Source: Methanocaldococcus lauensis
GTDB lineage: Archaea; AGJL01; Methanococci; Methanococcales; Methanocaldococcaceae
NCBI RefSeq assembly: GCF_902827225.1
Contig: NZ_LR792632.1
Coordinates: 1,135,030-1,199,029 of the forward strand
Reading direction: 5' to 3'
Length of the DNA stretch: 64,000 nucleotides
A program made the translations under genes and the position numbers. Shown here piece after piece: positions 16,217 to 44,270 of this stretch; positions within the stretch are counted from its first letter, which is position 1, and each line of letters starts with the position of its first letter. The notes below the pieces were generated by a model. The model did not search any database. It saw only the letters and a list, made by a program, of their open reading frames with translations, and was not told where the DNA came from.

Positions 16217-17161
16217 ATGATAACAACAGTTGTTGGTAGTTATCCAGTTGTTAAAAAAGAAGAGACATTTTTTGATAAAGTAAAAAAAGTTTTTGGATTG
16301 TACGATGAATATAAATACGCTATTGAAAAGGCAGTTATAGATCAGGTTAATGCAGGAATAGATATTATAAGTGAGGGGCAAGTTAGGGGCGACATGATAG
16401 AAATTTTTACAAATAAAATGTATGGATTTGACGGAAAAAGAGTTATTGGTAAGATTGAATTTATTGAGCCAATTACTGTAAAAGATGTTTTATACGCTAA
16501 AAATATTGCTAAGAAATTAAATCCAAAGGTAGAAGTTAAAGGAATTATAACTGGGCCTTGCACAATATCTTCATCTGTTAGAGTTGAAAATTATTATACT
16601 GACAATAGAGATGAAAATTTAATTTACGATATTGCCAAAGCTTTAAGAAAAGAAGTTGAAGAATTAAAAAAATATGTTTCAATAATTCAGATTGATGAGC
16701 CAATATTATCAACAGGTTTATATGATTTTGATATAGCACGGAAGGCAATAGATATAATTGTTAAGGATTTAAATATAAAATTTGCCATGCATGTTTGTGG
16801 AAATGTTTATAACATTATAGAGGAGTTGAATAAATTTAATGTAGATATTTTAGACCACGAATTTGCTTCAAATAGAAAAAATTTGGATATATTGGAAAGT
16901 ATAAAAAAGAAAGTTGGCTTTGGTTGTGTAAATACTAAGGTTAAAAGTGTTGAAAGTGTAGATGAAATAAAAAGTCTAATAGAGGAAGGTTTAGAGATAT
17001 TAAAAAACAATGAAAATTTGAATAAAAATTTATTTGAGAATATTTTAATAGATCCAGATTGTGGGATGAGGCTATTACCAATAGATGTTGCATTTAATAA
17101 ATTAAAAAATATGGTAAAAGCCACTAAACTTATAAAAAGTGAATTCAGTTCTCTTCTATAA
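16217..17161 (+). CDS. metE: Core-type methionine synthase (MetE C-terminal domain family)
   Basis: 314 residues, equal only to the C-terminal catalytic half of the 750-residue bacterial MetE. Such archaeal 'core' enzymes methylate homocysteine using a methylated corrinoid protein rather than folate. The zinc ligands are all present: H192 and C194 in MHVCGN, E215 in DHEFAS and C282 in DPDCGM. VVGSYP at the start and IDEPIL near 160 are conserved. The frame opens at a TTG (16205), but GGTGAAAG places the start at ATG 16217. Its last 17 bases overlap the 3' end of the convergent DUF2341 gene. Confidence 0.9.
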   Translation: MITTVVGSYPVVKKEETFFDKVKKVFGLYDEYKYAIEKAVIDQVNAGIDIISEGQVRGDMIEIFTNKMYGFDGKRVIGKIEFIEPITVKDVLYAKNIAKKLNPKVEVKGIITGPCTISSSVRVENYYTDNRDENLIYDIAKALRKEVEELKKYVSIIQIDEPILSTGLYDFDIARKAIDIIVKDLNIKFAMHVCGNVYNIIEELNKFNVDILDHEFASNRKNLDILESIKKKVGFGCVNTKVKSVESVDEIKSLIEEGLEILKNNENLNKNLFENILIDPDCGMRLLPIDVAFNKLKNMVKATKLIKSEFSSLL

Positions 17162-18710
17162 GTGGTTTATATCCTACATTACCCCAACTATCTCTTTTAT
17201 TTGTATATAAGCCAATAATAGAATAAGAGCCATTATAAACGAATATGTATTCTCCATCTTCACCATAGTAGATAGTTCCGGTAAATGTTTTTGGCTTTTC
17301 TTCTTTATAGTCAGGATTTGTATATTCTTCATTACTAACAGTTGTTGTGATATCATTTACATCTTTTAGGAAAATCCAATCAATTGATACTTTTGCATTA
17401 CTATTTACTAAAGTATTTATTGAAATCGGATAATTATTACCATTATTTCCATTAGTAAATGCTCTCTGATACAATATATTTAAAGTATCATCAAGGATTG
17501 AAAATTGTAAATCTCTATTTGAGATTCTTTTTAAATCATAAATATAAAACCCATTTAAATATGTATTACCATTTGGAACATAATCTCCTCTATTACTACC
17601 TACTCTCATATATAACCAATTGGTACTCCAATTATAACAATCCCAACCTACTCCAATATAATCAGATAATGACTCAAAAAATCCAACAGCTTGGGCATGA
17701 ACTGGCGTAAAATTACCTCTAAACATTAATTCATATCCTGTTCCATAGATATTTTTAGTCCATACACTTGAACCAATACCTTGAACTGTTAAAATACCAT
17801 TATTTATATCCCATCCACCACTAACATTCCATTTATCATAATCCATATAATTAAAGTCATCAAATAGTATAAATGTATCATCTGGATTTTGCCTATCAAC
17901 GGTTGTTGTTGAATTGTATAGTAAATAAATTTGGTTGTTGTTTATTAATTGGCTTTTATTACATCTCACCCAAATAATTGAGATGTCATTAGGCCCTCTC
18001 CAAATTTGTACCCAATATGGTAATAGATCATTATTTTTTCCTACGATTCTAATTTCTCTTGGCGAAAATGGGTTATACATATGGTTATAATTAAAGTTAG
18101 TGTTATTTAATATTATACAAAATGTATGATTTTCATCATCATTTGGAAAGTTATTTACAGTTATTATTTTATAATAACTCCAATTGTAGTAAAATTTATT
18201 TAAATACACATAAGGGTCAGGAATCCTTGATAGTTTTATATCTCTATCTATTGGTAGTTGCTTAACTCCAACGACCTCTCCATTATTTAACTTCTTTTTA
18301 TAGTTAATAGTTACAGTTAATGATAGATGAACTATTTTAGGATTTCCAGTTGGAGTAATATTTACAAAAGAAACATTATAAGTTATATTTTCAGTTCCTT
18401 TTAAGCAACCTAAAGTTTTATTAGTCTCATTTTTTATTAAACTGTCTATATAATTAACCGCCTCATTAGATGTATCAAAGAATCTTCGTTCCTTCATTAT
18501 TTTATAACTTGTATTTACAAAGGCATCTTCAACAATTTTATCGATATTTCTCTCGATAGTATTTTTTAAGTTCTTTTCATATAAACTAAACTTTTTTATT
18601 TTTATTTCATCTTCAATAGATTTTGTCTTATAATCGATAGTAGCATAATATACCGTTGAAATTACAAACATTAACATAACCAATATCATGGCATTTTGTG
18701 AGAGATACAT
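17145..18710 (-). CDS. DUF2341-domain surface protein with pilin-like N-terminus
   Basis: About 521 residues if started at ATG 18710; the frame is open up to 18749. The N-terminus has one hydrophobic segment (NAMILVMLMFVISTVYYA) as in pilin-like proteins. Residues about 190-280 match the DUF2341 pattern of archaeal surface proteins (NWSYYKIITVNN ... LPYWVQIWRG ... IWVRCN), followed by a jelly-roll-like domain containing FILFDDFNYMDYDKWNV. Asn and Thr are abundant, as in glycosylated surface proteins. It is related to the protein at 20337-22178. The decayed IS element upstream separates it from the rest of the operon, and ribosome-binding signals are weak. Confidence 0.7.
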   Translation of the reverse strand: MYLSQNAMILVMLMFVISTVYYATIDYKTKSIEDEIKIKKFSLYEKNLKNTIERNIDKIVEDAFVNTSYKIMKERRFFDTSNEAVNYIDSLIKNETNKTLGCLKGTENITYNVSFVNITPTGNPKIVHLSLTVTINYKKKLNNGEVVGVKQLPIDRDIKLSRIPDPYVYLNKFYYNWSYYKIITVNNFPNDDENHTFCIILNNTNFNYNHMYNPFSPREIRIVGKNNDLLPYWVQIWRGPNDISIIWVRCNKSQLINNNQIYLLYNSTTTVDRQNPDDTFILFDDFNYMDYDKWNVSGGWDINNGILTVQGIGSSVWTKNIYGTGYELMFRGNFTPVHAQAVGFFESLSDYIGVGWDCYNWSTNWLYMRVGSNRGDYVPNGNTYLNGFYIYDLKRISNRDLQFSILDDTLNILYQRAFTNGNNGNNYPISINTLVNSNAKVSIDWIFLKDVNDITTTVSNEEYTNPDYKEEKPKTFTGTIYYGEDGEYIFVYNGSYSIIGLYTNKRDSWGNVGYKPLIEEN

Positions 18711-18775
18711 AATAATCCCGTTTCCCATTTTTATAGCATATAATAGCATTTAACAACTTAGCAATATAAGCTAAG

Positions 18776-19674
18776 TTATGGAAATGGGTTGTCCTCAGCC
18801 CACAGATTCATAGGGAATACCATTCCCTCTGCTGTAGGTTCATTGGACTTCGGGCTGAACGGAAACAGCCCCATAAACCTTTTTATCAAAGTTATGATGA
18901 CCTCAAAGGCAGAGCCCTCTCATCGGCTAATTTATATAGTTGAGATAATCTATTTCCACAGTTTGGGCATAATATAGAGGTGTAGGAAGGATTTACCTCA
19001 ACAACTTTAACACCGAATTCTAAGCACTTATTTTTGAGGATTTCTAAAAATTTTTTAGCCGAGATGTTGTGTAGTTTATGTTTTAGCTTTTTAAATGAGT
19101 TTTTAACAATATTTTGGTTAAAATAAGAGGACAAATCCTCAATAATTAAAACTGCATCTTTTTCTTTAAGTTCTTTAGATATTTTGTTAGTTATATGTGG
19201 TTTTAGAGGAATAACTATTCTACCATTCGGTGTAGATGCTCTTAAATGCATTGTTTTCTTTCCTTCTTTATCTATTGAATATAGTTTTTCTATATTAGTT
19301 TTAAAATCTTTGTAGTTGAATAAAATATCATCTAACCATAAAGAGACATTCCTAACTTCTGGTGTTTCCGTATATGCTTTTCTCCTCTTTTTCATGGATA
19401 TAAAACTTTTTATCCTCGTGGATGCATCTTGTGAGGCAGTGTAAATATAATGAGTCGGCATCTTCGGATATTTGTTTTTTATTTCTTCATATATTCCCTT
19501 CCTAATCTTTATATGTCCTTTTAATTTATTCTTTAATCCAAATTCTAAGGCAATTGATAAAATTTCTTTATAAACCTCTATAGTATTCTCTATGATTTTT
19601 ATTTTTGTTCTCGTTAATGGTTTGCTTTTCAATACCACTGTTTTAGATAATTTAATAATTTCTGTCATCTTCAT
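18776..19674 (-). pseudogene. tnpB: Degenerate tnpB (RNA-guided nuclease family), internally deleted
   Basis: An open frame at 18892-19674 (260 residues) starts MKMTEIIKLSKTVV and keeps the helical N-terminal region, the RIVIPL strand, the RuvC-II glutamate in LIIEDLSS, and the first zinc-finger half CPNCG. The stretch normally containing the RuvC-I aspartate (VIGID...) is missing between IVIPLKPH and ITNKISKEL. The second CxxC pair and the RuvC-III DRD are also missing, since the frame ends after ADERALPLRSS. The usual C-terminal tail survives in another frame at 18776-18883 (reading MGLFPFSPKSNEPTAEG). Full-length relatives are about 400 residues. It cannot be catalytically active as it stands. 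Confidence 0.8.
18781..18885 (-). ncRNA. Candidate omega-RNA (reRNA) scaffold at the element's right end
   Basis: On the minus strand this GC-rich block can form two clean hairpins. GGGCTG/CAGCCC pairs at 18852-18857 with 18866-18871, and a perfect 7-base stem AGGGAAT/ATTCCCT pairs at 18812-18818 with 18822-18828. A further GGGCTG at about 18796-18801 could pair alternatively with the CAGCCC, as in a pseudoknot. TnpB guide RNAs are known to come from exactly this overlap of the tnpB 3' end and the right end. Expression is not known. Confidence 0.5.
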
Positions 19675-19745
19675 TCACTAAATAGTTCTTTTGTTTATTC
19701 AATAATAATACATTATTTATAAGAATTACGATATAATAATTACGC

Positions 19746-19772
19746 TACCATAAGTATCTATATGTTATGGTA
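19746..19772. repeat. Left-end palindrome of the IS element
   Basis: TACCATAA at 19746-19753 is the reverse complement of TTATGGTA at 19765-19772, with an 11-base loop. Sub-terminal palindromes of this size are the recognition structures of IS200/IS605 transposases. It lies about 70 bases upstream of the tnpB start. Confidence 0.6.
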
Positions 19773-19804
19773 TCTACAGAAATTAAGAAACTGTCGCAAA
19801 CCTT

Positions 19805-20344
19805 TTAGTTTTCAAATAAATATAGTTCAACTCTTGATGAATTTATATTTCTTGATAAATAAACTGGCATATGTATTGGGTAATTTACATATCTTTGAAA
19901 GTTATATGCCTCATCGTAATCGAGGAATCTTTCATTTGAAATATTAATAAAATCATCACTTCCATATATTACATACCATCCCTCACTCCTATTTAATGTT
20001 AAAACTGCTAAAACATATATGCTGTTATTTTTGTTGTAGGTTCCATCAGTATGGTTAATCAGAAGATGTCCATCAATATATAACTGATAGTTTTTCAGAG
20101 GAATCTTTTCTTCTAAAAGTTTTTTAGATTCGTTAGTTTTGTTAAAATAATATAGTAAAACTGCATTTTGCAGAGTTCCATCTTCTGAAAGATGTTCCAT
20201 CGTTTTAATCCCTCTATCAAATATATAATCTGCTTTAACCATATCAACATAGTTGTTGTTATGGTCTGTAATAGATATGGTCCAATAAGCCATTCCTATA
20301 ATTAAGATAGTTGTTCCAATAGCTAAATCTATACTGTTAATCAT
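19805..20344 (-). CDS. Pilin-like membrane-anchored surface protein, unknown family
   Basis: 179 residues: [23 protein letters not shown] gives an N-terminal membrane helix right at the start, followed by an extracellular Asn-rich domain. No domain is recognised. The start overlaps the stop of the upstream DUF2341 gene (ATGATTAA), so it is translationally coupled to the surface operon and is probably a minor subunit of the same structure. The IS element begins shortly after its stop codon. Confidence 0.6.
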
Positions 20345-22178
20345 TTGGATTCACCATTATGGTAATATTTCTTGGAGATAATGTTAAATAGTAAAAGTCT
20401 GTATTATCATCAGTTTCTATTTTAAACTCTACTGGTAAAGGACTACTTAATATTTCAATTTTATTTATTCCAGATTTTATATTTGGTGTAATATCAATAG
20501 GTTGTAATACTGTAAGAAGTGGCTTTCTATATACATATCCATTCACTGTAAAAATAACCTCAGATGCAAGCCATCTAACATCTGGCTCAGGTTCATAATA
20601 TTTTCTAACAAACACCCAGTCAATACTTATATTTCCATTTTTTTCAGAATCAGGTGGATTATATCCTCCTCCCTGTGAAGTATCATATTCCCTTGCATAG
20701 AATGAAACTGGTAAATTACCATTATATACATAATTAGACAAACTCCAAAATTCATTATCGTTAATTAACAGATTTACATTGTTATTTTCATTTCTTTGTA
20801 TTTCGTAGGTGTTCCAATTATTGTATAGATTATCTGGTAGTATTCTATATTCTATATGATTTTCATCAGTTGTAGATGATTCAAATCTTAAAAACTCTCC
20901 TCCCCAATGATAGTTTGAGACCATTTGTCTATCATATATTGTATATCCATGGTAATATCCTCCCCATTCTTCATATCTTTTATGAAAATTCGCTCTAAAC
21001 CTTACTGCGGTGTGACTATCATAATTACCTGTAGTTATATATATCTCATTATCGTTAGTAAGATTATTCACATTATAATAGTTATAATCCAAGCTTAAAT
21101 ATGTAAAGTTTATCCCATTAGGGTAAGTATCATTTATAAATAGGGGATTTCTAAAATTATAAATCCATTTATTTAAGTTCTCTTCAGAGAAATTGTCAAA
21201 GAATACAAATGTATTTTCTCCATTACTCTTTGATTTTGCATTTGGATTTCCATAGAGCATATAAATTAATTTATGCTCATTTGGAGCTAAATTTACTTTT
21301 ACCCAGACAACTGTTCTTTGAGTATTAATTGTATTTGGTTCAATCCAGTAATTTAACTCGTTTCCATTACTATCTATAAATCTTATATCACCACAGTCAG
21401 GTTTCATCAATCCATCATTAATATAACTTCGAGAGTCAAATATTACTTTTATATCATAATCATTTAATGGTATATTTAATCTATTTATTACTAATATAGG
21501 AGCGGCATATCTCCAATCACTCCATGAACTAAATATATTTCTATTATCTGTAATAACTCTTGCAGAAGCACTTATTACATTTCCATCACATATTCTGAAA
21601 TAGATATGATCTCCATTACATCCATATAAATTTACTTCGCTTTTATTTTTAGTAATTCCAGTAATTTTTGGAATATAGGCATTTTCTTTAAAGTATATTA
21701 TTGTATTTGCATTTGAAATATTTGGTAAGGATATTAAAGATATGTTAGAAAATACATTTGAATATACTGTGAAATTATATCCATTAAAAGTAAATGTTAT
21801 TTTATTTAGGGAAATATTACTATTGTCCAACATGTCATCAAATTCATTTGGATAAATTACAAAACAAAATTTTCCTGAATCATTTGTAAAATTATTAATA
21901 GGGTCAAATGTTTTTTCATTCAAGTTTAATATGTCTGTAAAATTTTGAATATAATCCTCTTTATAATTTCCTGGAAATTCATATTTTTTTAGAAATAAAT
22001 CTTTTAATAACAATGCTTTGTGAAATTGTTCTGTATCTCTCTTTTCTTCAATACCTGTTAATAAATTATGGCTATATATACTATATCCTAAATAAAAAAT
22101 ACTTAAAAAGATAAATGCAACTATAACTGCCTCAAAAGTAAATATATAACCTTTATTTGATTTAATTTTTTTTATCAT
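20337..22178 (-). CDS. DUF2341-domain surface protein with class III-like signal peptide
   Basis: 613 residues. The N-terminus [19 protein letters not shown] resembles a prepilin with cleavage after G10, a glutamate at +6 and a membrane helix, although the usual Gln at +1 is Tyr. Residues about 210-300 form a DUF2341 domain ([12 protein letters not shown] ... YWIEPNT ... VVWVKVNL), followed by a jelly-roll-like region with [15 protein letters not shown] and a beta-rich C-terminal domain with [16 protein letters not shown]. It is paralogous to the protein at 17145-18710. AAAGGAGATTGTT precedes the start. Probably an accessory or tip subunit of the filament encoded here. Confidence 0.75.
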
Positions 22179-22196
22179 AACAATCTCCTTTAATAT

Positions 22197-22649
22197 TTAT
22201 TTTACTATTCCAATTTTTAATAATATTTTAACCCATATAAAATTTAAAAGTAACGCCACTGGGAAGATTATAAAACTCAATATATTATGCACAAAATTAT
22301 AATCTGAAATATATGAATTTTTTAAAATAAGGATTATCCTCAATATATTTGCAATATTTATAACAAAAATTCCAAAAATTGAATATAGAAATTTATATTT
22401 GATGGATACTTTTGGAGTAGCAAGAACATAACCTAAAAATAAAGACATCTCCAAAGAGCAAGTGCAGGCAGATATTATAGTATAAGCATCTCCGTTGTAT
22501 ATAATAACATTATCAAAATATTGCGTTTTTAGTAGATTTCCAATAATATATGCTAAAATTTTAGATATCTCATATTCAAAAGGTTTTATAAAGAAATATA
22601 TTAAAGGAAACAAAATCAAAAAATTAATTAAATATTTTTTATTTTCCAT
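22197..22649 (-). CDS. Archaeosortase (exosortase family), probably ArtE-like
   Basis: 150-residue integral membrane protein with about five hydrophobic segments. It has the catalytic signature of exosortases and archaeosortases: Cys in SACTCSLEM (C62, or C64), Arg in the NILRI motif (R104), and His in NFVHN (H121), on successive membrane segments. These cysteine transpeptidase-like enzymes cleave C-terminal sorting signals and attach the protein to lipid. The start overlaps the end of the pilin gene by 11 bases. The protein encoded two genes upstream ends in a matching PIP-type tail. ArtE is the type I recall pairing with PIP-CTERM proteins; that assignment is from memory. Confidence 0.8.
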   Translation of the reverse strand: MENKKYLINFLILFPLIYFFIKPFEYEISKILAYIIGNLLKTQYFDNVIIYNGDAYTIISACTCSLEMSLFLGYVLATPKVSIKYKFLYSIFGIFVINIANILRIILILKNSYISDYNFVHNILSFIIFPVALLLNFIWVKILLKIGIVK

Positions 22650-22863
22650 TTGTTGAAACCTCTTTAACTTTATCTACCTGACTTAAAACTTTATTACTTG
22701 CTCCAATTGTCGATTTTACACTTGTAGTTTTAGCAGTTGTTGAAGATTGTGATATAGATTTTAAATAATAGAATCCTGCAATAGATACTGCCGCTACAAT
22801 TGCGGCAAGTAGTAAAGCAAACTCTAAGGATATTTGCCCTCTATTAGATATTATTTTTTTCAT
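22639..22863 (-). CDS. Small type IV pilin with class III signal peptide
   Basis: 74 residues. [15 protein letters not shown] gives a textbook EppA-type (class III) processing site between G9 and Q10, with glutamate at +5. A 20-residue hydrophobic helix ([19 protein letters not shown]) and a short Ser/Thr/Lys-rich tail follow. After cleavage it would be about 65 residues, typical of a major methanococcal pilin. The ATGA overlap with the PKD gene and the 11-base overlap with the archaeosortase gene show tight coupling. Confidence 0.85.
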
Positions 22864-25800
22864 TTTAATCTCCTCATTATGTAGTTTATACTAAGTAAGG
22901 TTGTTATAAAGATAATTATTTCAATTGGTAGGGGTATTGGAATGCTCTTTCCAGTTCCTTTATTTACTGAAATTATTCTAACTGTAGAGCCATTAAGATT
23001 TTCATCATCAACTACGGTTAATTTAACAGTATATACTCCAGATTTGTTATAGATGTGGGTAATTATAGGATTGGTAGTAGTATTAGTATCGCCATCTCCA
23101 AAGTCCCAAATATATTTTACAATGACTCCATCAATATCATAGGATGAAGAGGCATCAAAGGTTACATTTAAGCCATTTACTGTAAAAGTAAATCTTGCAA
23201 CAGGAGGATAATGCCCGTTACCTATTACAAATATTCTTTTTGATATTGTATCCTTTACTCCATAACTATTAGTAACAGTTAGTGTTACTTCATAGATTCC
23301 TCCCTTTATATATTTATGTATTGGATTCTGTTTATTTGATGTAGTTCCATCTCCAAAATCCCAATACCATTTAACTATATTACCTGGAGTAGATGTAGAG
23401 TTATCTATGAAGTATATTGTTTGATTAATATGAATAATATTAGGAATCCATGTAAAGTTAGCTTTAATGTAAAATACATTTACAGGTTTTGTAATAGAAC
23501 TTGATGAATTTAGATTATCATAAACTGTAAGTGTTACATTGTATGTTCCTGGGTTAGTATAGATATGAGTAATTTTTGAAGAATTTGTTTCATTGATATT
23601 TCCATCTCCAAAATTCCAAACATATTTTACTATTTTTCCTTCTGGGTCGTAAGATAATGATGCATCAAAAGTTATAGTTTGATTAACCTTAGGGAGATTT
23701 GGATAGTAAGTAAATTCAGATACTGGAGGTTTATTTATAATGCTAAATTTAACACTTACTGAATCTGTCTTGCCCATTCCGTCCCAAACTGTTAATACTG
23801 CTGTGTAGTTTCCAGTTTCATTAAATTTGTGAGATACTATTTTTAATTCATTTGATGTATAATTCCACACTACATTTCCAGATGAGTTATATACTGTTAA
23901 ATTAAATCCATATATTTTTGCCATGGGAGAATTTGGTGGTATAGTATATTCACTTATTTTGTTTCCATTATAATCATACTCAGGAATATTTCTATTTGCA
24001 TCTGGATCATAACTATTTATTGAGTTAAAAAATACAGTTGTATTATAACTTGCAGGATTTGGATAGACGTATAATCTAGCTATAGGATCTCTATCATCAA
24101 TAATATATACAGTTTTTCCGTTTTCAACACTACGCACTTTCATATCTATATGATATACACCTTCTGATGTATAGGTATGAGTAAATGTATACGGAGAATA
24201 GTGAGGTAGTATCCATTGATAGTTTCCATCTCTAAAATATACTACATGCCAAAATCTTGTATAATATGCAGGTTCAACTATAGTAATATTTATTGGATAA
24301 TTCGTAGGAGCAATTGTAGGAGAAACATAAATTTGTGGGTATGAAGAATAGCCACCAACACCAATTGGTGGAGGAATTCCTACTTCAATGTTTCCATATT
24401 CATCAACAATAAATACATGAGGATAGTAAATTCCTGATTTACTATATCTATGAGTAGGTGATGTTTTAAACGAAATAGTCCCATCTCCAAAACTCCACAT
24501 AATAAATATTGGTTTAAATACTGGATTGCAGTGAAATTGAACATTTTGATTTACTCCAACTTCTACTGGATTAGCTGTAGCAGTTATATCAATATAGTAT
24601 CCATCTTTTATTTTCATATTTTGTTTAGGGGTAGGATTATCAGAATAGTAGTATAGATTAACTATATGTGCAGATGTATTATAAGTATATGAATATGTTG
24701 AGGGGTTATATGTTGATGATGGGTAAAAATTATATCTTGTATTTCCTACATCACCAACTACTATGAAGTTTAATGTATCTGATTTCCACCAACTACCTGC
24801 ACCATAACTCATCCAGAAGAATGGCCACATAAATGGGAATTTGTATACATGATATGAGGGTGTAAATAAATATTTATATGTATAGTCAGTTTCTGTACCA
24901 TCTCCAAAGTCCCATTTCCAGTAATACCCCCACGCCCCTGACATTTCAAATCTTATAGTATCATTTTCTTTATATGTCAATTTATATGGGTCAGTATATG
25001 CATTACCTCTATTGTCATTATCATCTCCTGAACTATTATATACATAAGTATATGCCTCTCCATTATAATGACTAGGACCCATAACCCAGTATATATATCC
25101 ACCTCTTGGCTTATTTACTTTAATTCCTTCATCTAAATACCCAACTAAAACCCTTCTATAGTCATCTACTAATAAAACTCTTGGATAGTAAATTCCAGGT
25201 TTTGTATAAGTATGTGTAGGAGATTTTTCAAAGGAAAATGTTCCATCTCCAAAACTCCACATAATAAATATAATATTTCTACTTATAGAGTAGTTGAATT
25301 TAACACTATCTCCTGCAACAATTTCATCCCTACTAACATTTACAGTAACTGGGGTAAGATCCACACTTAAACCATAAAATTCATAATTTTTAGGAGTTTC
25401 TGAGTAATATTTTATTATAACAGTATTGTTTGAACTGTTGTAAATTACATTCCACTGTTGTTTTGAGTTTGATGAACTACCATTAAAAATATACTTAGTA
25501 TTTCTTACATCTCCAACAACGAGCCAATTGTAAGTTAAAGCCTTAGAATAACCAGTATTGTTTAAATATCCACACCATGCAACTGGATATGGAAATGGAA
25601 AACTATACTTATGTGTGACAATATTGTTACTATTGTTGTAATCAGTTTCTGTTAAATCTCCAAAATCCCATTTTACTAATCCATTATTTAATATATCCTC
25701 TGTAACAGAATCTGGAGCTAAGGCTGTAAATGTTATAGTATCATTAACTTTATATGCAATAATGTTTTTATTATAGTTATTTGTATAACCACTACTGTTT

Positions 25801-25913
25801 GTTATATTCATTGTTCCATTATGAATTAGTATTATATATCCATTAGACATTGAGACATTTAAACCTAAAAATAATAAAAATGCTATAAAAATTAATAAAC
25901 GATTTACTTTCAT
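22860..25913 (-). CDS. PKD-repeat adhesin with C-terminal PIP-type archaeosortase signal
   Basis: 1017 residues with a signal peptide ([20 protein letters not shown]). Seven PKD-type motifs are visible: WDFGDLT, WSFGDGT, WDFGDGT, WSFGDGT, WNFGDGN, WDFGDGT and WDFGDGD. The first four sit in two long, mutually similar modules (about 30-270 and 275-530); the last three are standard PKD domains at about 740-980. The C-terminus is KSIPIPLP followed by a membrane helix and RRLK, the tripartite layout of an archaeosortase substrate. It is Asn/Thr/Tyr rich and probably glycosylated. It is the likely client of the archaeosortase at 22197 and a surface adhesin or stalk. GGTGAGAGT precedes the start. 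Confidence 0.88.
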
Positions 25914-25936
25914 ACTCTCACCAGAATAAAAACAAT

Positions 25937-26383
25937 TTAACTAAAACTAATATTTACATTTAATTTTTTAGAAACATTTAATATTTTCCCATCAACATTG
26001 GCACTTATAACTATGTTATTCCCTACATTTATAGGAGATTGTGTAAATCCACTTAATATAACGCCATTTTTATTAGGCGTAATTAAGATATATGTATCTC
26101 CAATAACATTTATAGTTTTATCTTTTATAGTTAAATTGTATCTTAATGTCCCAATAGGCTTTAATTTAATACTGATACTTACATTATTTGTATATGCTAA
26201 AATTGCATAGTTTTCAAGGGTATCGGCTATATCATATAATCTATTTACTATTAAGGCATCAGTAGTGCTATCCGTATAACTAAGTTCAGTATTATATATG
26301 AATAATGAAACAATGAGTAGAGAAAATATTGCCATAATAAGGTCAATAGATATTTGCCCTCTTTTTTTGATTAGTTTTATCAT
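25937..26383 (-). CDS. Pilin-like protein with class III signal peptide
   Basis: 148 residues. [16 protein letters not shown] has the class III cleavage site with an acidic residue (Asp) at +5, followed by a hydrophobic helix ([15 protein letters not shown]). The mature part is about 120 residues of beta-type pattern with no recognised domain. GGGGATTTAGT precedes the start. It is probably a minor pilin of the filament encoded by this operon. Confidence 0.75.
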
Positions 26384-26415
26384 ACTAAATCCCCAAATAA
26401 TAAAGATAAAATTAG

Positions 26416-28215
26416 TTAAATATTATGTATTCCGGAGTTATCCATTATAGCATGTTTGTAATATTTACCTTCAATATATGATTCTATTATTTCTATTTGA
26501 CTATGTTTGCCCCATTTATTCACAGAGATTTTATCAATTCTTGAATTTTTAATAAATAACTTATTATTATTTTTTGATTTATATTCATTAATTGTAATTT
26601 CTTTTACTATTGAATTATTTATAAGCCCATTATTGTTATATTTATTAATGTAAATTTTGTCTACACTACTATTATCTATTGTTAGATAATTATATTTATT
26701 ACATTTGTAGGTATTGTCAATGATAATCTCTTTTATTGTTGTGTTTTTAATTAATCCCATTTTATAAGAATAACTACCCATTTTAAGTGATGAAATACTT
26801 GAACTATCAATTACTATTTTATTATTTTTCATTGTATTAGCAGAGATAGTATCTATTATTGAATTATGTATATACACATTTGCATAAATCGTACCTGCTT
26901 CAATATTATTAATTTTTGAATTAATAATATCCATATTATATTTTATATTATGTTTAATTTTTATATTTTCAACAGTTGAATCTATGAACTTGAAATTGTT
27001 ATAAATATTATTTGCTTCTATATTACCACTAACATTAGTATTCTTAAATGTCATTTTAGCATTTATATTATTTTTAATTTTTATATTCTCAACTAATGAG
27101 TTACTAAACTCAACAAGCCCTTTAAAAGATCCACCAGTTTCAATATTATTAATTTTCGAGTTAATAATTTTCATATTTTCTGATTTTATATTTCCATCAG
27201 TTTTTATATTCTCTATATCTGAATTATTAAATATCATAAATTTATTGTTAATGCCTTTTTTTGCTTCGATATTATTAATTTTTGAATTGACTAATTTTAT
27301 GTCTCCTTTAATGTATCTATTTGTTTTTATATTCCCAACTGATGAATTTATAAATTCATAATTACCATAAATGTCTCTTGCTTCAATATTACCTTCTATT
27401 TTAGAATTAATAACTTCCATATTACATTTTATATCTTTATCAACCTTAATATTGTCTATCTCTGTTTTATATAGTTCTATATTAATGTAAGTGCCATATG
27501 ACTTTTCAATACTATATGCATAAAAATCATCAATATATGAATTAATAAATAATAATTTCTTCGTTTTTATACCCTCTTTTCCGGTTACTTCAAAGTTTCC
27601 AATGTATGAAGAAGATATATTTAGCAATCTACCTTCTAATGTATCAGCGGATATCTTATCAACTTTAGGAACATTAATATATGTCTCACCTGCATTATGG
27701 TCATCCATTTTTAAATATAATGAAGAAATCTCATATATATTACCAAATAACAATTCACCTCCTTTATTGATAGTAATATTACCACCAACTGTTCCATTTG
27801 CGTTATATTTTACAATCTCCTTATTATTTATTTTTTTATTAATTTCTCCAGAAACCCAATTCCCTCCGCTTATATAGTTTTTTGTTAGTAATGCATAACC
27901 TTTTACATGTAAAAATAAATCGTCAATTCTACCAGGAATATTAATGTTAGTATCAGTTTCATTATTATTTGTATTATTATTAGTAGTTGTATTATTGGTA
28001 GTGTTGTTTATGTGTGTAGTAGTAGCTGATAAGTTAAAATTAACATTTAATGTAGTATTACTTGGAGTAAACGAAACTATTGTTAATTTTTTAATATTTT
28101 CTACATCTTTACTATTAAAGTTTATACCACCAATTTGAGTGGCAATAATAGCTCCCCCAATAACAACAGCCAAAATAAGCATAAGAAATTCAAGAGTTAG
28201 TTGTCCTCTTTTCAT
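26416..28215 (-). CDS. Beta-helix-like repeat protein with class III signal peptide
   Basis: About 599 residues from ATG 28215 (GGTGAATAGT in front; the frame opens four codons higher). MKRG|QLTLEF is a class III prepilin site with Glu at +5. A Thr/Asn-only linker at about 55-90 leads to a body made of about twenty degenerate units of roughly 20 residues built around 'NSKINNIEA..' and 'NSxVENIKI..'. The alternation of short hydrophobic strands and Asn-rich turns suggests a right-handed beta-helix. Promoter-proximal gene of the surface operon; a filament-tip or matrix protein is plausible. No characterised homologue is recognised. Confidence 0.72.
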   Translation of the reverse strand: MKRGQLTLEFLMLILAVVIGGAIIATQIGGINFNSKDVENIKKLTIVSFTPSNTTLNVNFNLSATTTHINNTTNNTTTNNNTNNNETDTNINIPGRIDDLFLHVKGYALLTKNYISGGNWVSGEINKKINNKEIVKYNANGTVGGNITINKGGELLFGNIYEISSLYLKMDDHNAGETYINVPKVDKISADTLEGRLLNISSSYIGNFEVTGKEGIKTKKLLFINSYIDDFYAYSIEKSYGTYINIELYKTEIDNIKVDKDIKCNMEVINSKIEGNIEARDIYGNYEFINSSVGNIKTNRYIKGDIKLVNSKINNIEAKKGINNKFMIFNNSDIENIKTDGNIKSENMKIINSKINNIETGGSFKGLVEFSNSLVENIKIKNNINAKMTFKNTNVSGNIEANNIYNNFKFIDSTVENIKIKHNIKYNMDIINSKINNIEAGTIYANVYIHNSIIDTISANTMKNNKIVIDSSSISSLKMGSYSYKMGLIKNTTIKEIIIDNTYKCNKYNYLTIDNSSVDKIYINKYNNNGLINNSIVKEITINEYKSKNNNKLFIKNSRIDKISVNKWGKHSQIEIIESYIEGKYYKHAIMDNSGIHNI

Positions 28216-28241
28216 ACTATTCACCACAGTAATATAGTAAA

Positions 28242-35075: not shown

Positions 35076-35104
<29 letters not shown>
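34145..35104 (+). CDS. thiL: Thiamine-monophosphate kinase
   Basis: Phosphorylates thiamine monophosphate to thiamine diphosphate. 319 residues, AIR synthase-like fold. The N-terminal DDDCAVIKI metal-binding motif is at about 25-33, TTDMMI follows near 44, NVSDIASMGAKPLAFL near 75, GGDTNKGDE near 122 and the C-terminal DISDGLGKEI near 220. All are typical of ThiL. It overlaps the downstream archaeosortase gene by 29 bases in another frame. Confidence 0.95.
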
Positions 35105-36381
<1,277 letters not shown>

Positions 36382-39190: not shown

Positions 39191-41110
39191 TTGGCAAAAA
39201 TATTAATAGCCCCATTGGGTGTGGGAGATACTAACGAAGATATATACAAAAGGCAATATCGAACCGCAAAATACAGATTCGAAGGGGATAATAAAGAAAT
39301 AGAGAGTCCTTTTGTTTTATCAGTTTTAGTTGAAAAGTTAAAGATAGATAAAATTATAGTTGTTGGAACAAGTAAATCTATGTGGGAGGAACTCTATAAA
39401 CATTATGCTCAAAAAATTGGGAAATTTAATGAAAAATATTGGAAATATATCGGAGAAAAGGTTGGAAAATCTAATTATAAAAATCATGAATTGAAAGAAG
39501 AGGATTTAAAAGAACTATGTAATGTCTTAGATGAATATTTAAAAAAGATTAATCCTAATGCAAAAGGTGGCTCTAAGTGTTTGCTTATTAAGTATGGAAT
39601 AAATAAAGAAGAAATTTGGGAGAATTTCGATATTTTTATGTCTTTAACTAATGAAATAAATGATAATGATGAAATTTATTTAGATATTACTCATTCATTT
39701 AGATCTATCCCTCTATTTATGTATGTAATGTTAGAATTCCTTAGATACTTCAAAAATATTAAACTTGAAGGAATATACTATGGAATGTTAGATGTTTATA
39801 AAGAACTAAATTATGCTCCAATTGTTGATTTAAGCCCTATATTTGAAATTCTTGATTGGGTTAAAGGAATGTATGAATTTACAAAATATGGGAATAGTTA
39901 TTTAATTTCTGATTTGTTGGAAGAGGAAAACAAATTATTGGCTAATAATCTTAGAAAAATCTCAATTCATATAGATGCAAACTATTTAAGGGAAGTTAGG
40001 GAAGATATAAAGGAATTAAATAAAATATTGAACAACATCAATGAAGATTTTGGAAGATTTACAAAATATATTATTCCAAAGTTAAAGGAATTTAGTGAAA
40101 GATTTAATAATGTATCTTCATACTATGAGTTTCAAAAATTAATGGCAGAGTGGAATTTTGATAATAAAAAATACAGTTCTGGATATCTATGTTTAACTGA
40201 CTCTATATTTTGGATGCTATGTGAAAAATATGGATTAACTCCAACACACAAAAATAGGGACTTAATGAAAAGATTATCTTATGCCGTAGATTTATTGTTC
40301 TTTAAGGAAGTTAATGCAATTTATGAAAGGTTGAGAGATATAAGAAATACAATAGCACATGCTGATGTTGTCCATAAAGGTGTGGAATTTAATACTGAAA
40401 AAGATTTAGAAAGTATTGAAGAATTATATAAAAAGAATCCTCCAGATATAGAGGAAGTTATAGACAATTTAATAGAGAAAATTAACAATAATGAGAAAAA
40501 TAGAGAATATTATTTAAATCTACTAAATAGATTGTTTAGAACTTTGCTAATTCAAAAAGTTATTAATGCATATAAACTTGAAAATAATGAAATATATTGG
40601 AATTTTGTAGAGAAGAATTTGTTATCTCCTAAATGTAAAAATAGATGTACTAATGAAAAATTAAAGGATGTTATTGAAATTTTGGAAGAACTTGATAATA
40701 ACGAGAATGTAGTAGAGAAGGTTAATAAAGTGATGAATATAGTTAATAACTACAAAGATGAGGATTTCTATGATTTTAATGTCTTAGAATTTGCTTTATT
40801 AAATTATATCTCCTTCAATCTATCAAAAACATACAATGTTAGTAGTAAAGATTACTTCAAAGTATTTAAATGGCTCATATTGAATAGAAGATTATGCTCT
40901 AAAAATCAGATTATGAATTTTCTAAATAATAAATATTATAAAATTTTCAGCTATAAAAGAAATGGAAATAAAATAAATGATGAGATTCTTTCCCATGTGA
41001 AGGATATAATAAATCAATTGAATGAGGATTTATCGTCTATTAAAAAAGAGTTACCTCTTGATATGTTAAAAAAAGAATATGAAAGATTCTCAAATTCTAA
41101 AAATAGGTGA
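39191..41110 (+). CDS. csx1: Csx1-family CARF-HEPN ribonuclease (first copy)
   Basis: 639 residues. The N-terminal CARF (Rossmann-like) domain begins AKILIAPLGVGD and contains LDITHSFRSIPLF at about 164-176, the ligand-binding segment of Csx1/MJ1666-type proteins. The HEPN ribonuclease motif R-x4-H is R385-N-T-I-A-H390. A further helical domain of about 230 residues follows. Such proteins bind cyclic oligoadenylate made by Cas10 and then cut RNA non-specifically. The start is TTG with GGTGATG seven bases before it. It overlaps or abuts csx20 and is the first gene of the type III operon. Confidence 0.9.
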   Translation: MAKILIAPLGVGDTNEDIYKRQYRTAKYRFEGDNKEIESPFVLSVLVEKLKIDKIIVVGTSKSMWEELYKHYAQKIGKFNEKYWKYIGEKVGKSNYKNHELKEEDLKELCNVLDEYLKKINPNAKGGSKCLLIKYGINKEEIWENFDIFMSLTNEINDNDEIYLDITHSFRSIPLFMYVMLEFLRYFKNIKLEGIYYGMLDVYKELNYAPIVDLSPIFEILDWVKGMYEFTKYGNSYLISDLLEEENKLLANNLRKISIHIDANYLREVREDIKELNKILNNINEDFGRFTKYIIPKLKEFSERFNNVSSYYEFQKLMAEWNFDNKKYSSGYLCLTDSIFWMLCEKYGLTPTHKNRDLMKRLSYAVDLLFFKEVNAIYERLRDIRNTIAHADVVHKGVEFNTEKDLESIEELYKKNPPDIEEVIDNLIEKINNNEKNREYYLNLLNRLFRTLLIQKVINAYKLENNEIYWNFVEKNLLSPKCKNRCTNEKLKDVIEILEELDNNENVVEKVNKVMNIVNNYKDEDFYDFNVLEFALLNYISFNLSKTYNVSSKDYFKVFKWLILNRRLCSKNQIMNFLNNKYYKIFSYKRNGNKINDEILSHVKDIINQLNEDLSSIKKELPLDMLKKEYERFSNSKNR

Positions 41111-41115
41111 TAATT

Positions 41116-41499
41116 TTGCCAAAGATGTTTTTATTATTTTCTCATAATCTTACTGATGACCAAATAAAAGATGCAAAGGAAAATTTAAAGGTAGATAAAT
41201 TTATATATTTGCCAAAAGAATTACAAAATATTTGGAGTAATATTCCCCCAGAAGTTGAGGATATAACCGATTATCTAAAACCTATAAAAGAATTTCTAAA
41301 AAATAATGCAAATGATGGGGACTATGTATTAATACAGGGGGACTTTGGAGCAACATACAATATGGTTAGCTATGCCTTTGAGAATAATTTAATTCCTATT
41401 TATGCAACTACAAAAAGAGTGGTTAAAGAAGTTATAGAGAATGGTAAAGTGATAACAATTAGAGAATTTAAACATTGTAGATTCAGAAAATATAAATAG
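41116..41499 (+). CDS. csx20: Csx20-like CRISPR accessory protein, probable ring nuclease
   Basis: 127 residues from TTG 41116, or 124 from ATG 41125; GGTGAT at 41106-41111, overlapping the csx1 stop, is the ribosome binding site. MFLLFSHNLTDDQ, the central DGDYVLIQGDFGATYNMVSYA (in parts) and TTKRVVKEV fit the small CARF-like Csx20 family found beside type III systems. Family members are proposed or reported to be ring nucleases that degrade cyclic oligoadenylate and so switch off Csx1. Position between csx1 and cas10 fits that role. Family assignment is by memory of the pattern. Confidence 0.7.
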   Translation: MPKMFLLFSHNLTDDQIKDAKENLKVDKFIYLPKELQNIWSNIPPEVEDITDYLKPIKEFLKNNANDGDYVLIQGDFGATYNMVSYAFENNLIPIYATTKRVVKEVIENGKVITIREFKHCRFRKYK

Positions 41500-41537
41500 A
41501 CCTATTAACAAATATTATTTATTATTGGGGGATTGTT

Positions 41538-44270
41538 ATGGATAAAGATTATAAAGCGTTAATGATTGGAAGTTTATTGCACGATATTGGGAAGTTTATA
41601 CAGAGGGCTAAAAATCCAAGAAGTAAATCGCATGAGGAATTTGGTTATAAATATCTGAAAAACAAATTTGAAGAAGGATTTTTAACAAATTTAGATAAGG
41701 AAACAAAGAAAAAAATCTTAAACATTGTTAAAGAACATCATAATGATAAAATAAAGAGAGGTTTAGTGGGGATTGTTAGATTAGCCGATTGGTTGAGCAG
41801 TGGTGAAAGAGAATCTCCAAAAACATATGAAGAAATATATAAAGATAAGGATATTGAAATATTAAACAGTAATAAACAAAAATTAATGTCAATATTTGAA
41901 ATTCTTAGAATTAATGAAGAAGATTATATTGATGAAGCCCTTACAATTTATAATAACGAAATCACTTACAAGTATGAATGTATTCCCTTAAAAATACATG
42001 ATGAAGTAATTTTTGCACGTGAATCATCTTTTCATAGTGAAGATAATACATATTATAATCTTTTAACAAGATTTAATGAGGAATTAAAGGAATTTTCAGA
42101 ACCTACTTTTGAAGAACTTTACCAGTTAATACAAAAATATATGTGGTGTATTCCATCAGTAACATTATGGAAGAAAGGAAATAAAATTTTTGGAGGAATA
42201 CCAGATATCTCATTATTTGACCATTTAAAAACTACTTGTGCTATTGCATGTTGCTTATATAATTTATACAAAGATGGAAAACTAACAGATGATGATATCG
42301 AAAAACTACTGAAAAATAACAAAAAACTTTGGAATAAGCCAATATTTTCATTAATTCATGGAGATATATCTGGAATACAGAATTTTATTTTTACAATCTC
42401 TTCAAAATATGCTATAAAATCATTAAAAGGTAGAAGTTTTTACTTGGATTTCTTAACTGAATATTTAGCAAAATACATTTGTAAAGAGCTAAATTTACCA
42501 ATAGCTAATATACTATATTATGGAGGAGGTCATTTCTATATTTTGAGTTATCTTTTAGATGACAATAAAATTAATGAATTTGAAAAAAAGATAAATGACA
42601 CATTATACAATATGTTTAAAACAAAAATCTATGTTACTATTGAAAAATATGATGTAACCCCAAATAACTTCAAAATGAAAAATGATGAAAACTTTGCAAA
42701 AATTTGGCGATATGTTGCAGATGTTACTCTTAAAAAGAAGTTTAAAAAATTTAGTTATAAAATTAGTGAAATTTTTAAGCCTTATGGCTCTGAAAAAGAG
42801 GACAAATGTAAGATATGCAATAGAGATATTGAATTAAAGAAAGAAAATGAAAATAAAGAATACTTCTATTTATATGAAGAAAATAATAAAGAAATAATTT
42901 GTAAATATTGTGCATCTTTTATAATGCTTACAGAAATTTTGAAAAAGTTTGAAATTAATAAAAAAATTGAATTCAATAAAGAATTTGAAATAAAACATCT
43001 AAAAATAAAGACGAAATTTTCTAATATTCCCGCAATTAAAGAACTAATTGATAAGTTAGGTTTAGATTTTAATGACAACAATTATTGGCTTGACACATAC
43101 TATTTGCCTCATGATAGTGGAGAACTTATAATACCATATAAAATATGGAGTATTGCATTTCCATTAGAGAAAGTAGAAGAAGATGAAGACAGTAAGGAAT
43201 ATAAAATAAGAGATTTCGATACTTTAGCAAATTTAGCATATAAAAGAACAGGGACTAATAAAATAGCAATATTGAAGATGGATGTTGATTATCTTGGGAC
43301 TATATTTACTCAGGGTTTAGGTAAAGAATCTACTGAAAATAACAAAAAAATAAAAAGTAGAGCATCTATCTCAAGAATGAGCACATTAAGTTCCATGTTA
43401 ACTTTATTTTTTACAGGATACATTCCTCATTTAATAAACACTGGTAAAACTGAAACTGTAAAAATTAATGGAGAGCCTGTAAGATACAAAGATTATATAT
43501 ATTTAGTTTATTCTGGGGGTGATGATACCTTAATAGTTGGAAGTTGGGATGTTGTTATTGATTTAGCTAAAAGAATTAGAAAGAACTTTTCAAAATTTGT
43601 GTGCTATAATCCAGATATTACACTAAGTGCTGGAATTGTTTTAATTGATCCAAAGTTTGAATTTAAGAAGGCAGTTAATATAGCAGAGGAGGAATTAGAA
43701 ACTGCAAAAGGATATAGTATTTATGAAGATGATAATATGAAGATAGATAAAAATGCTTTATCTATCTTTGAAAGTCCTATGAACTGGTATGTAGAAGTTT
43801 ATTATAATAAAGAAATGTGGGAAAAATGGAAAAAATTACAAGAAATTGGAATCTTACCTAAAAGATACGAAATATTATTGAAATTTGAAAGTTTAGTTGA
43901 AAATATTAATGAGAATGAATTGGAAAAGAGGTTTGAAAATGCTCTAATTTCAAAAGATTCAAAGATTAGCAGAAGATTATTGCATATCTCTCAAAATGTG
44001 GCAGATAGATTAAATAAGGTCATTAATAAGAAAAATAATGGTGAGATTATATTAAATCTACCTTACTATTGGAGAATGCTCTACTACCTTTATAGAAACT
44101 ACAAAAATAACAATAAATTAGATAAGAATGTTAAATTTATTGAAGACTATCTTAAAAGTAAGGTTATGGGGCAAATAAAGTCCCCTAAAATTAAATTCAG
44201 TTGTAATGATTTGAAAGTTGCCGCCAAAATTGTTGAACTTAAAACGAGGGAGGGTGAGAAAAATGCATAA
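41538..44270 (+). CDS. csm1: Type III-A Cas10/Csm1 with HD and GGDD palm domains
   Basis: 910 residues, the large subunit of the Csm complex. The N-terminal HD nuclease motif is H15-D16 in LLHDIGKF, with EHHNDK near 75. A zinc-binding linker has C424-x2-C427 and C455-x2-C458. The active cyclase/polymerase palm motif GGDD is at 660-663 (YSGGDDTLIVG). So both the target-activated ssDNase and cyclic-oligoadenylate synthase activities look intact. The operon continues with csm2, whose ATG lies inside the last codons (8-base overlap). Confidence 0.96.
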   Translation: MDKDYKALMIGSLLHDIGKFIQRAKNPRSKSHEEFGYKYLKNKFEEGFLTNLDKETKKKILNIVKEHHNDKIKRGLVGIVRLADWLSSGERESPKTYEEIYKDKDIEILNSNKQKLMSIFEILRINEEDYIDEALTIYNNEITYKYECIPLKIHDEVIFARESSFHSEDNTYYNLLTRFNEELKEFSEPTFEELYQLIQKYMWCIPSVTLWKKGNKIFGGIPDISLFDHLKTTCAIACCLYNLYKDGKLTDDDIEKLLKNNKKLWNKPIFSLIHGDISGIQNFIFTISSKYAIKSLKGRSFYLDFLTEYLAKYICKELNLPIANILYYGGGHFYILSYLLDDNKINEFEKKINDTLYNMFKTKIYVTIEKYDVTPNNFKMKNDENFAKIWRYVADVTLKKKFKKFSYKISEIFKPYGSEKEDKCKICNRDIELKKENENKEYFYLYEENNKEIICKYCASFIMLTEILKKFEINKKIEFNKEFEIKHLKIKTKFSNIPAIKELIDKLGLDFNDNNYWLDTYYLPHDSGELIIPYKIWSIAFPLEKVEEDEDSKEYKIRDFDTLANLAYKRTGTNKIAILKMDVDYLGTIFTQGLGKESTENNKKIKSRASISRMSTLSSMLTLFFTGYIPHLINTGKTETVKINGEPVRYKDYIYLVYSGGDDTLIVGSWDVVIDLAKRIRKNFSKFVCYNPDITLSAGIVLIDPKFEFKKAVNIAEEELETAKGYSIYEDDNMKIDKNALSIFESPMNWYVEVYYNKEMWEKWKKLQEIGILPKRYEILLKFESLVENINENELEKRFENALISKDSKISRRLLHISQNVADRLNKVINKKNNGEIILNLPYYWRMLYYLYRNYKNNNKLDKNVKFIEDYLKSKVMGQIKSPKIKFSCNDLKVAAKIVELKTREGEKNA

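Follow-up and report, generated by a model that had tools for sequence, protein, structure and literature searches.

A detached half of an Epd-type pilus operon carrying a predicted archaeosortase D anchoring cassette in Methanocaldococcus lauensis

We analyzed a stretch of 64,000 nucleotides from Methanocaldococcus lauensis (contig NZ_LR792632.1, positions 1,135,030 to 1,199,029 of the forward strand; hereafter the window, numbered from its first letter), and concentrated on a minus-strand run of pilus and protein-sorting genes. From homology and gene order, we take this locus to be the second half of a type IV pilus operon of the Epd type (clade 1), which has become detached in Methanocaldococcus and carries a putative anchoring cassette. 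The cassette lies between epdC and a DUF2341 gene, and consists of three genes, encoding a PKD protein with a PIP-type tail, a small class III pilin and archaeosortase D (ArtD). We consider it reasonably probable that these elements form one system, i.e. that the locus is half of an Epd operon with an ArtD cassette, whose PKD protein is anchored by ArtD and serves a function of the pilus.

The run spans 28227 to 17145, with intergenic distances of 32, 23, −4, −11, 18 and −8 base pairs. It contains the following eight pilus or sorting genes (protein lengths in amino acids, aa) and one TnpB remnant.

26416–28227, minus strand: class III protein, 603 aa (RG|QLTLEF), whose body is long and repetitive; Class_IIIsignal 19.5 bits (protein scan) and 24.2 bits (genome scan).
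25937–26383, minus strand: EpdC-like minor pilin, 148 aa (RG|QISIDL); phmmer 3.7e-21 to EpdC of Methanococcus maripaludis, same place in the operon.
22860–25913, minus strand: secreted PKD protein, 1017 aa, with a signal peptide and a C-terminal PIP-CTERM; PKD_4 2.8e-87, PIP_CTERM 34.4 bits.
22639–22863, minus strand: class III pilin, 74 aa (RG|QISLEF), TIGR04205; 104 bits against a cut-off of 65.
22197–22649, minus strand: ArtD, TIGR04175, triad C62/R104/H121; 198 bits against a cut-off of 125.
20337–22178, minus strand: DUF2341 pilin-like protein, 613 aa, atypical leader KG|YIFTFE, counterpart of MMJJ_08210 / MMP0239; DUF2341 93.7 bits.
19805–20344, minus strand: EpdH-like protein, 179 aa, with an N-terminal hydrophobic helix and lacking a class III leader; phmmer 5e-23 to M. 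maripaludis EpdH.
17145–18710, minus strand: EpdI-like DUF2341 protein, 521 aa; phmmer 4.5e-14 to M. maripaludis EpdI.

An earlier reading of this DNA (the original prediction) had described a run of seven genes with overlaps and four clear or probable class III prepilin sites. The run is real, but it has eight genes and is split by the TnpB remnant. Three of the sites are canonical. The fourth, in the 613-aa protein, is also conserved but departs from the usual pattern: its +1 residue is Tyr, Ile or Phe, and its Glu stands at +6 instead of +5. The open reading frame of the EpdI-like protein probably starts at 18710 (conserved MYLSQ, 521 aa) rather than at 18749 (534 aa).

The relationship with the epd operon was reached through a class-wide search for DUF2341 proteins. 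The 148-aa protein corresponds to EpdC of M. maripaludis, the 613-aa protein to its DUF2341 protein, the 179-aa protein to EpdH and the 521-aa protein to EpdI, and the order of the genes is identical. The 613-aa protein gave phmmer values of 1.7e-27 with the intact homologue of another genome (G017; G and L numbers are our own survey labels) and 7.1e-16 with the N-terminal piece of its counterpart in M. maripaludis JJ. Profile-based E-values for these matches are not independent, as the profiles include the hits. Strain JJ (G014) has its DUF2341 gene in two pieces of 58 and 561 aa (L096; 756048–757918, contig 1), perhaps owing to a frameshift or an assembly error. G014 was identified as strain JJ by the published insertion positions that we compared: those in epdI, epdH, MMJJ_08210, 08230, epdC, epdF, epdA, eppA and artE fall in the expected open reading frames of this genome (PMC10133366), apart from one listed position for MMJJ_08230, 753,363, which lies outside the frame and seems to be a misprint. 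The genes mmp0231-0241 of M. maripaludis are transcribed as a unit, and pili require mmp0234 and mmp0239-0241, mmp0235 and mmp0238 being dispensable (PMC4187195). We equated these S2 locus numbers (mmp) with the JJ genes by gene order and sizes.

In the window genome, eppA, epdA, epdF and epdB are absent from the operon of these genes. They are found, together with a gene for a 309-aa protein, at 289167–293275 (eppA-epdA-epdF-309-epdB). We have therefore filed the locus as half of an Epd (clade 1) operon and not as a complete one, and the original prediction of a self-contained filament or stalk locus is not supported. Its further remark, that it knew of no described system of this composition, finds no support either, as the cassette trio is named in NCBIfam and the other four core genes are those of the epd locus (PMC10133366; PMC4187195). 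It had rightly expected the pilus motor and platform to come from elsewhere: like eppA, an ATPase gene with two TadC genes was found away from the locus (226451–230020, contig 1), and its two TadC partners suggest that this ATPase belongs to clade 1. The genome has two further ATPase loci, one for the archaellum and one for another pilus, whose pilins and peptidase are encoded there too.

The physical distance of the locus from eppA and from the motor in Methanocaldococcus, and the presence of its own small class III pilin, which could be a major subunit, would also fit a separate filament or stalk, distinct from the Epd pili and built with a borrowed motor. We find this distinctly unlikely. 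The four core genes have their counterparts in the epd operon, and the genome revealed no further copy of them, its only two strong DUF2341 matches both lying in the operon described here; the only other non-archaellum ATPase locus has its own pilins and peptidase; and one relative (G035) has the two halves joined in one contiguous operon, eppA-epdA-epdF-220-264-epdB-epdC-[777-aa PIP protein, 75-aa pilin, ArtD]-272-177-518. In another genome (G023) the cassette likewise sits between epdC and the DUF2341 gene, and a member of the same genus (G022) has the same genes without the cassette.

Our survey covered 36 Methanococci genomes. ArtD was found in 13 of the 14 Methanocaldococcaceae and also in two Methanococcaceae. 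The order epdC-like, PKD/PIP, 74 aa, ArtD, DUF2341, 179 aa, DUF2341 is kept in 9 of 13 Methanocaldococcaceae loci, the window included. One genome (G012; L035, L114) has all seven core genes rearranged, the DUF2341-EpdH-EpdI trio being upstream of epdC-PKD-pilin-ArtD; in another (G007) the contig begins within the PKD gene; and in two (G002 and G009) the counterpart of the 613-aa protein is shorter, ∼295 aa. The core arrangement, shared by nearly all relatives, is far beyond chance, and the pilin-like genes keep their place next to ArtD, as the original prediction required. The gene for the 603-aa protein varies among relatives, where it may be present, shortened, inverted or missing; it lies upstream and outside the conserved core.

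Next, we consider the cassette itself. The trio TIGR04175, TIGR04173 and TIGR04205 is already catalogued in NCBIfam, the last under the name 'archaeosortase D/PIP-CTERM system-associated'; thus the core trio is known, and its setting is what needed work. We found no published text on PIP-CTERM in the open-licence papers that we searched. The enzyme with the Cys/Arg/His triad, encoded two genes after the PKD gene, had been recognized correctly: Cys62, Arg104 and His121 are invariant in an alignment of 15 homologues, and the score with the archaeosortase A model TIGR04125 (21.4 bits) stays below its cut-off of 75. The PIP-type tail of the 1017-aa protein was also recognized correctly; it reaches 27.7 bits with TIGR04173 in the protein scan and 34.4 bits in the genome scan, the cut-off being 30. 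In the genome scan with PIP_CTERM, this protein, adjoining ArtD, was the only convincing target in its own genome, where no unrelated ArtD target appeared. A single PIP tail is present in each of the 15 genomes with ArtD, recognized by search in 14 of them and by eye in G012, and none was found in any of the 21 genomes without ArtD. The PKD protein is thus a predicted ArtD substrate. In agreement with the original prediction, one conserved operon encodes the pilin-type proteins, an archaeosortase and the single target of that enzyme. A separate contig scan with ArtD gave four loci, and near relatives were possibly excluded from that scan. Processing of the PKD protein by the second archaeosortase of the genome, ArtE, was rejected as the main explanation: the pairing of ArtD with PIP tails is one to one, whereas many genomes with ArtE have no PIP tail.

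The 74-aa pilin gene adjoins artD in all 15 ArtD loci that we read, even in a genome (G008) where the PKD gene lies on another contig. This constant pairing could mean that ArtD is a linking transpeptidase, which would couple the PKD protein and the pilin covalently to give a decorated pilus. If true, this would be a sortase-like covalent decoration of a type IV pilus and a new way of pilus building. However, the alignment reveals no conserved acceptor residue at the variable C-terminus of the pilin, and we know of no archaeosortase that uses a protein acceptor, which counts against linking; we hold this reading to be very unlikely.

Gene content, orthology, gene order and the pairing of enzyme and target were established directly in this analysis, and from them a working scheme can be proposed. 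EppA, encoded elsewhere, would cleave the class III prepilins, and the ATPase with two TadC proteins at 226451–230020 would assemble the pilins; EpdC, EpdH, EpdI and the DUF2341 protein would be present as minor subunits or at the tip. The PKD protein would be exported by its signal peptide and halted by its C-terminal helix. ArtD (Cys62/Arg104/His121) may then cut at the PIP motif and attach the C-terminus thus created to the membrane. As a result, ∼1000 residues of predicted beta-sandwich domains would project beside the pilus base, where the protein would probably bridge to the S-layer or act as an adhesin or a guide for the pilus. Archaeosortase A attaches lipid to its targets, and anchoring by ArtD is inferred by analogy with that behaviour. 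As the ArtD cassette and the pilus genes are encoded together inside the detached half of the operon, the anchoring enzyme and its target probably work together with the Epd pilus system.

Alternatively, the PKD protein could itself be a tip or shaft adhesin, carried out by the DUF2341 pilins, with ArtD trimming off the C-terminal helix so that the released protein can be loaded onto the pilus. The DUF2341 proteins of clade 1 pilus loci have been likened to PilY tip adhesins by Makarova et al. (PMC4858521), MMP0235 or MMP0238 have been proposed as tip adhesins (PMC4187195), and a cluster of phage tail genes also encodes a DUF2341 protein, next to a tape-measure protein (L103:4729-5925, G013). 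On the other side, the archaeosortases studied so far are reported to anchor their targets, and a Pfam scan of the operon proteins gave no PilY1-type domain, the accepted hits being DUF2341, PKD and the class III signal. We think a tip or shaft location unlikely, and prefer anchoring in the membrane. Apart from this question, the phage-tail protein hints that DUF2341 is a surface-binding module.

The slot of the cassette has a different occupant in Methanococcus. In four genomes (G014–G017), a secreted protein of 165–176 aa, MMP0238 / MMJJ_08230, is encoded between epdC and the DUF2341 gene. Its C-terminus resembles a sorting signal, e.g. KLPINLPMNILPAILILFILKKFKG. In an alignment of 25 members, the family has a signal peptide, a Pro-containing motif, a hydrophobic helix and, in most members, a basic end; the Pro of the tail is one of six invariant residues. 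Stand-alone homologues occur in most other genomes, including that of the window (contig 1, 1502458–1502940). The enzyme that may act on them is also in the window, outside the operon.

35076–35621, plus strand: archaeosortase E (ArtE), TIGR04124, second archaeosortase of the genome; 186 bits against a cut-off of 95.

The presence of the MMP0238 family agrees with that of ArtE in 32 of the 36 genomes, and perfectly in the genomes that are at least 90% complete (n = 27; 22 with both, 5 with neither). In G012 the ArtE gene was matched only in pieces. We conclude that MMP0238 is a predicted ArtE substrate, and that the PKD/PIP protein may be its Methanocaldococcus counterpart in the same operon slot. 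Common ancestry of the two proteins was not upheld, their alignment being confined to the tails.

Deletion of artE in M. maripaludis abolishes DNA uptake and can be complemented, and the same screens hit epd genes and MMJJ_08230 (PMC10133366). A candidate reason for the ArtE requirement is that the Epd pilus system includes proteins processed by archaeosortases. Pili form without MMP0238, whereas DNA uptake depends on ArtE and the epd genes; an involvement of the anchored protein in attachment or DNA capture is therefore more likely than one in assembly. We found no described link between ArtD and epd or between ArtE and MMP0238 in the open-licence literature, although an earlier report could exist.

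Several observations speak against this interpretation. Fisher's p for ArtE and MMP0238 (1.2e-5) ignores relatedness and is overstated, as there were about two independent losses. Three genomes (G018–G020) keep a full epd operon and have neither ArtE nor MMP0238, the MMP0238 slot is empty in G022, G029 and G033, and most genes of the MMP0238 family are unlinked to pilus genes. In a profile comparison, the MMP0238 and PKD families align at the tails only and weakly (E 0.018, probability 2.6%). Because the genes share a single transcript, polar effects of the MMJJ_08230 insertions on those downstream are possible. The ArtD locus of G003 lacks EpdC and the DUF2341 gene, and in G008 ArtD keeps only the small pilin beside it, the PIP protein and an epdI-like gene being on different contigs. 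Finally, we infer the cleavage, anchoring, location and role of the ArtD and ArtE substrates, as well as any part of the Methanocaldococcus locus in DNA uptake. The pieces of G008 are L034:10663-11337, L151:7052-10105 and L115:8707-9750, with the small pilin and ArtD remaining paired.

The separation of the cassette from the pilus genes in G008 would suit a cassette that shares the operon by chance and serves general envelope anchoring; ArtE itself lies among housekeeping genes, flanked by thiamine-phosphate-kinase-like and RNA methyltransferase-like genes. However, the same linkage, with its overlapping genes, is seen in two families and in two arrangements, and the enzyme has just one target. 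We give mere neighbourhood a very slim chance, and retain the association of an ArtD-anchored protein with the Epd pilus.

Among known systems, the closest is the epd operon of M. maripaludis (mmp0231-mmp0241; MMJJ_08190-08290; clade 1), which shares the EpdC, DUF2341, EpdH, EpdI order and whose remaining parts occur elsewhere in the window genome; unlike it, the operon described here is split in two, and the PKD/PIP protein, the class III pilin and ArtD hold the MMP0238 slot. All three families of the ArtD/PIP-CTERM system are over or at their cut-offs, and the system differs here in having one target per genome. This trio, so far a bioinformatic association only, gains a likely biological setting that is testable in a genetically tractable relative. 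ArtE of M. maripaludis (TIGR04124; MMJJ_17200) has a related enzyme in the same window and tracks the MMP0238 family; unlike ArtD, it is a separate gene, and its predicted tail motif is roughly xP[IV][SPT], versus PIPxP. The archaeosortase A/PGF-CTERM system of Haloferax shares with ArtD the enzyme superfamily and a tripartite C-terminal signal; ArtD falls short of the TIGR04125 cut-off. Archaeosortase A of Haloferax has many targets, compared with one for ArtD. PilY1 of Pseudomonas is similar in that a large surface protein is encoded with minor pilins; it differs by the PilY1-type domain, which is missing here, and by the archaeosortase tail of the PKD protein.

We also looked for structural relatives of the operon proteins. 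Searching by sequence against solved structures gave no match for ArtD, the DUF2341 proteins or the 74-aa pilin. AlphaFold models had a mean predicted local distance difference test score (pLDDT) of 37 for the 613-aa protein and 45.6 for the 521-aa protein, low values that probably reflect the use of only four sequences; only residues 1–160 of the latter, with a long helix and a beta-sheet, mostly reached 65–80. Foldseek with the model of the 521-aa protein gave no match at E ≤ 0.001.

One feature of the run does not belong to the system.

18892–19674, minus strand: TnpB remnant between the epdH-like and epdI-like genes; TIGR01766 58.7 bits.

It breaks the run by ∼1.1 kb, and the insert is absent from the relative G009 (L033). 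The remnant in the pilus operon is without TnpA, and a longer copy is present in the sister strain SG1 (L119:12983-13930). Elsewhere in the window, type III CRISPR (clustered regularly interspaced short palindromic repeats) genes lie on the plus strand at 39191–44270, and encode a Csx1-type CARF protein and a Csm1/Cas10 protein with HD and palm domains.

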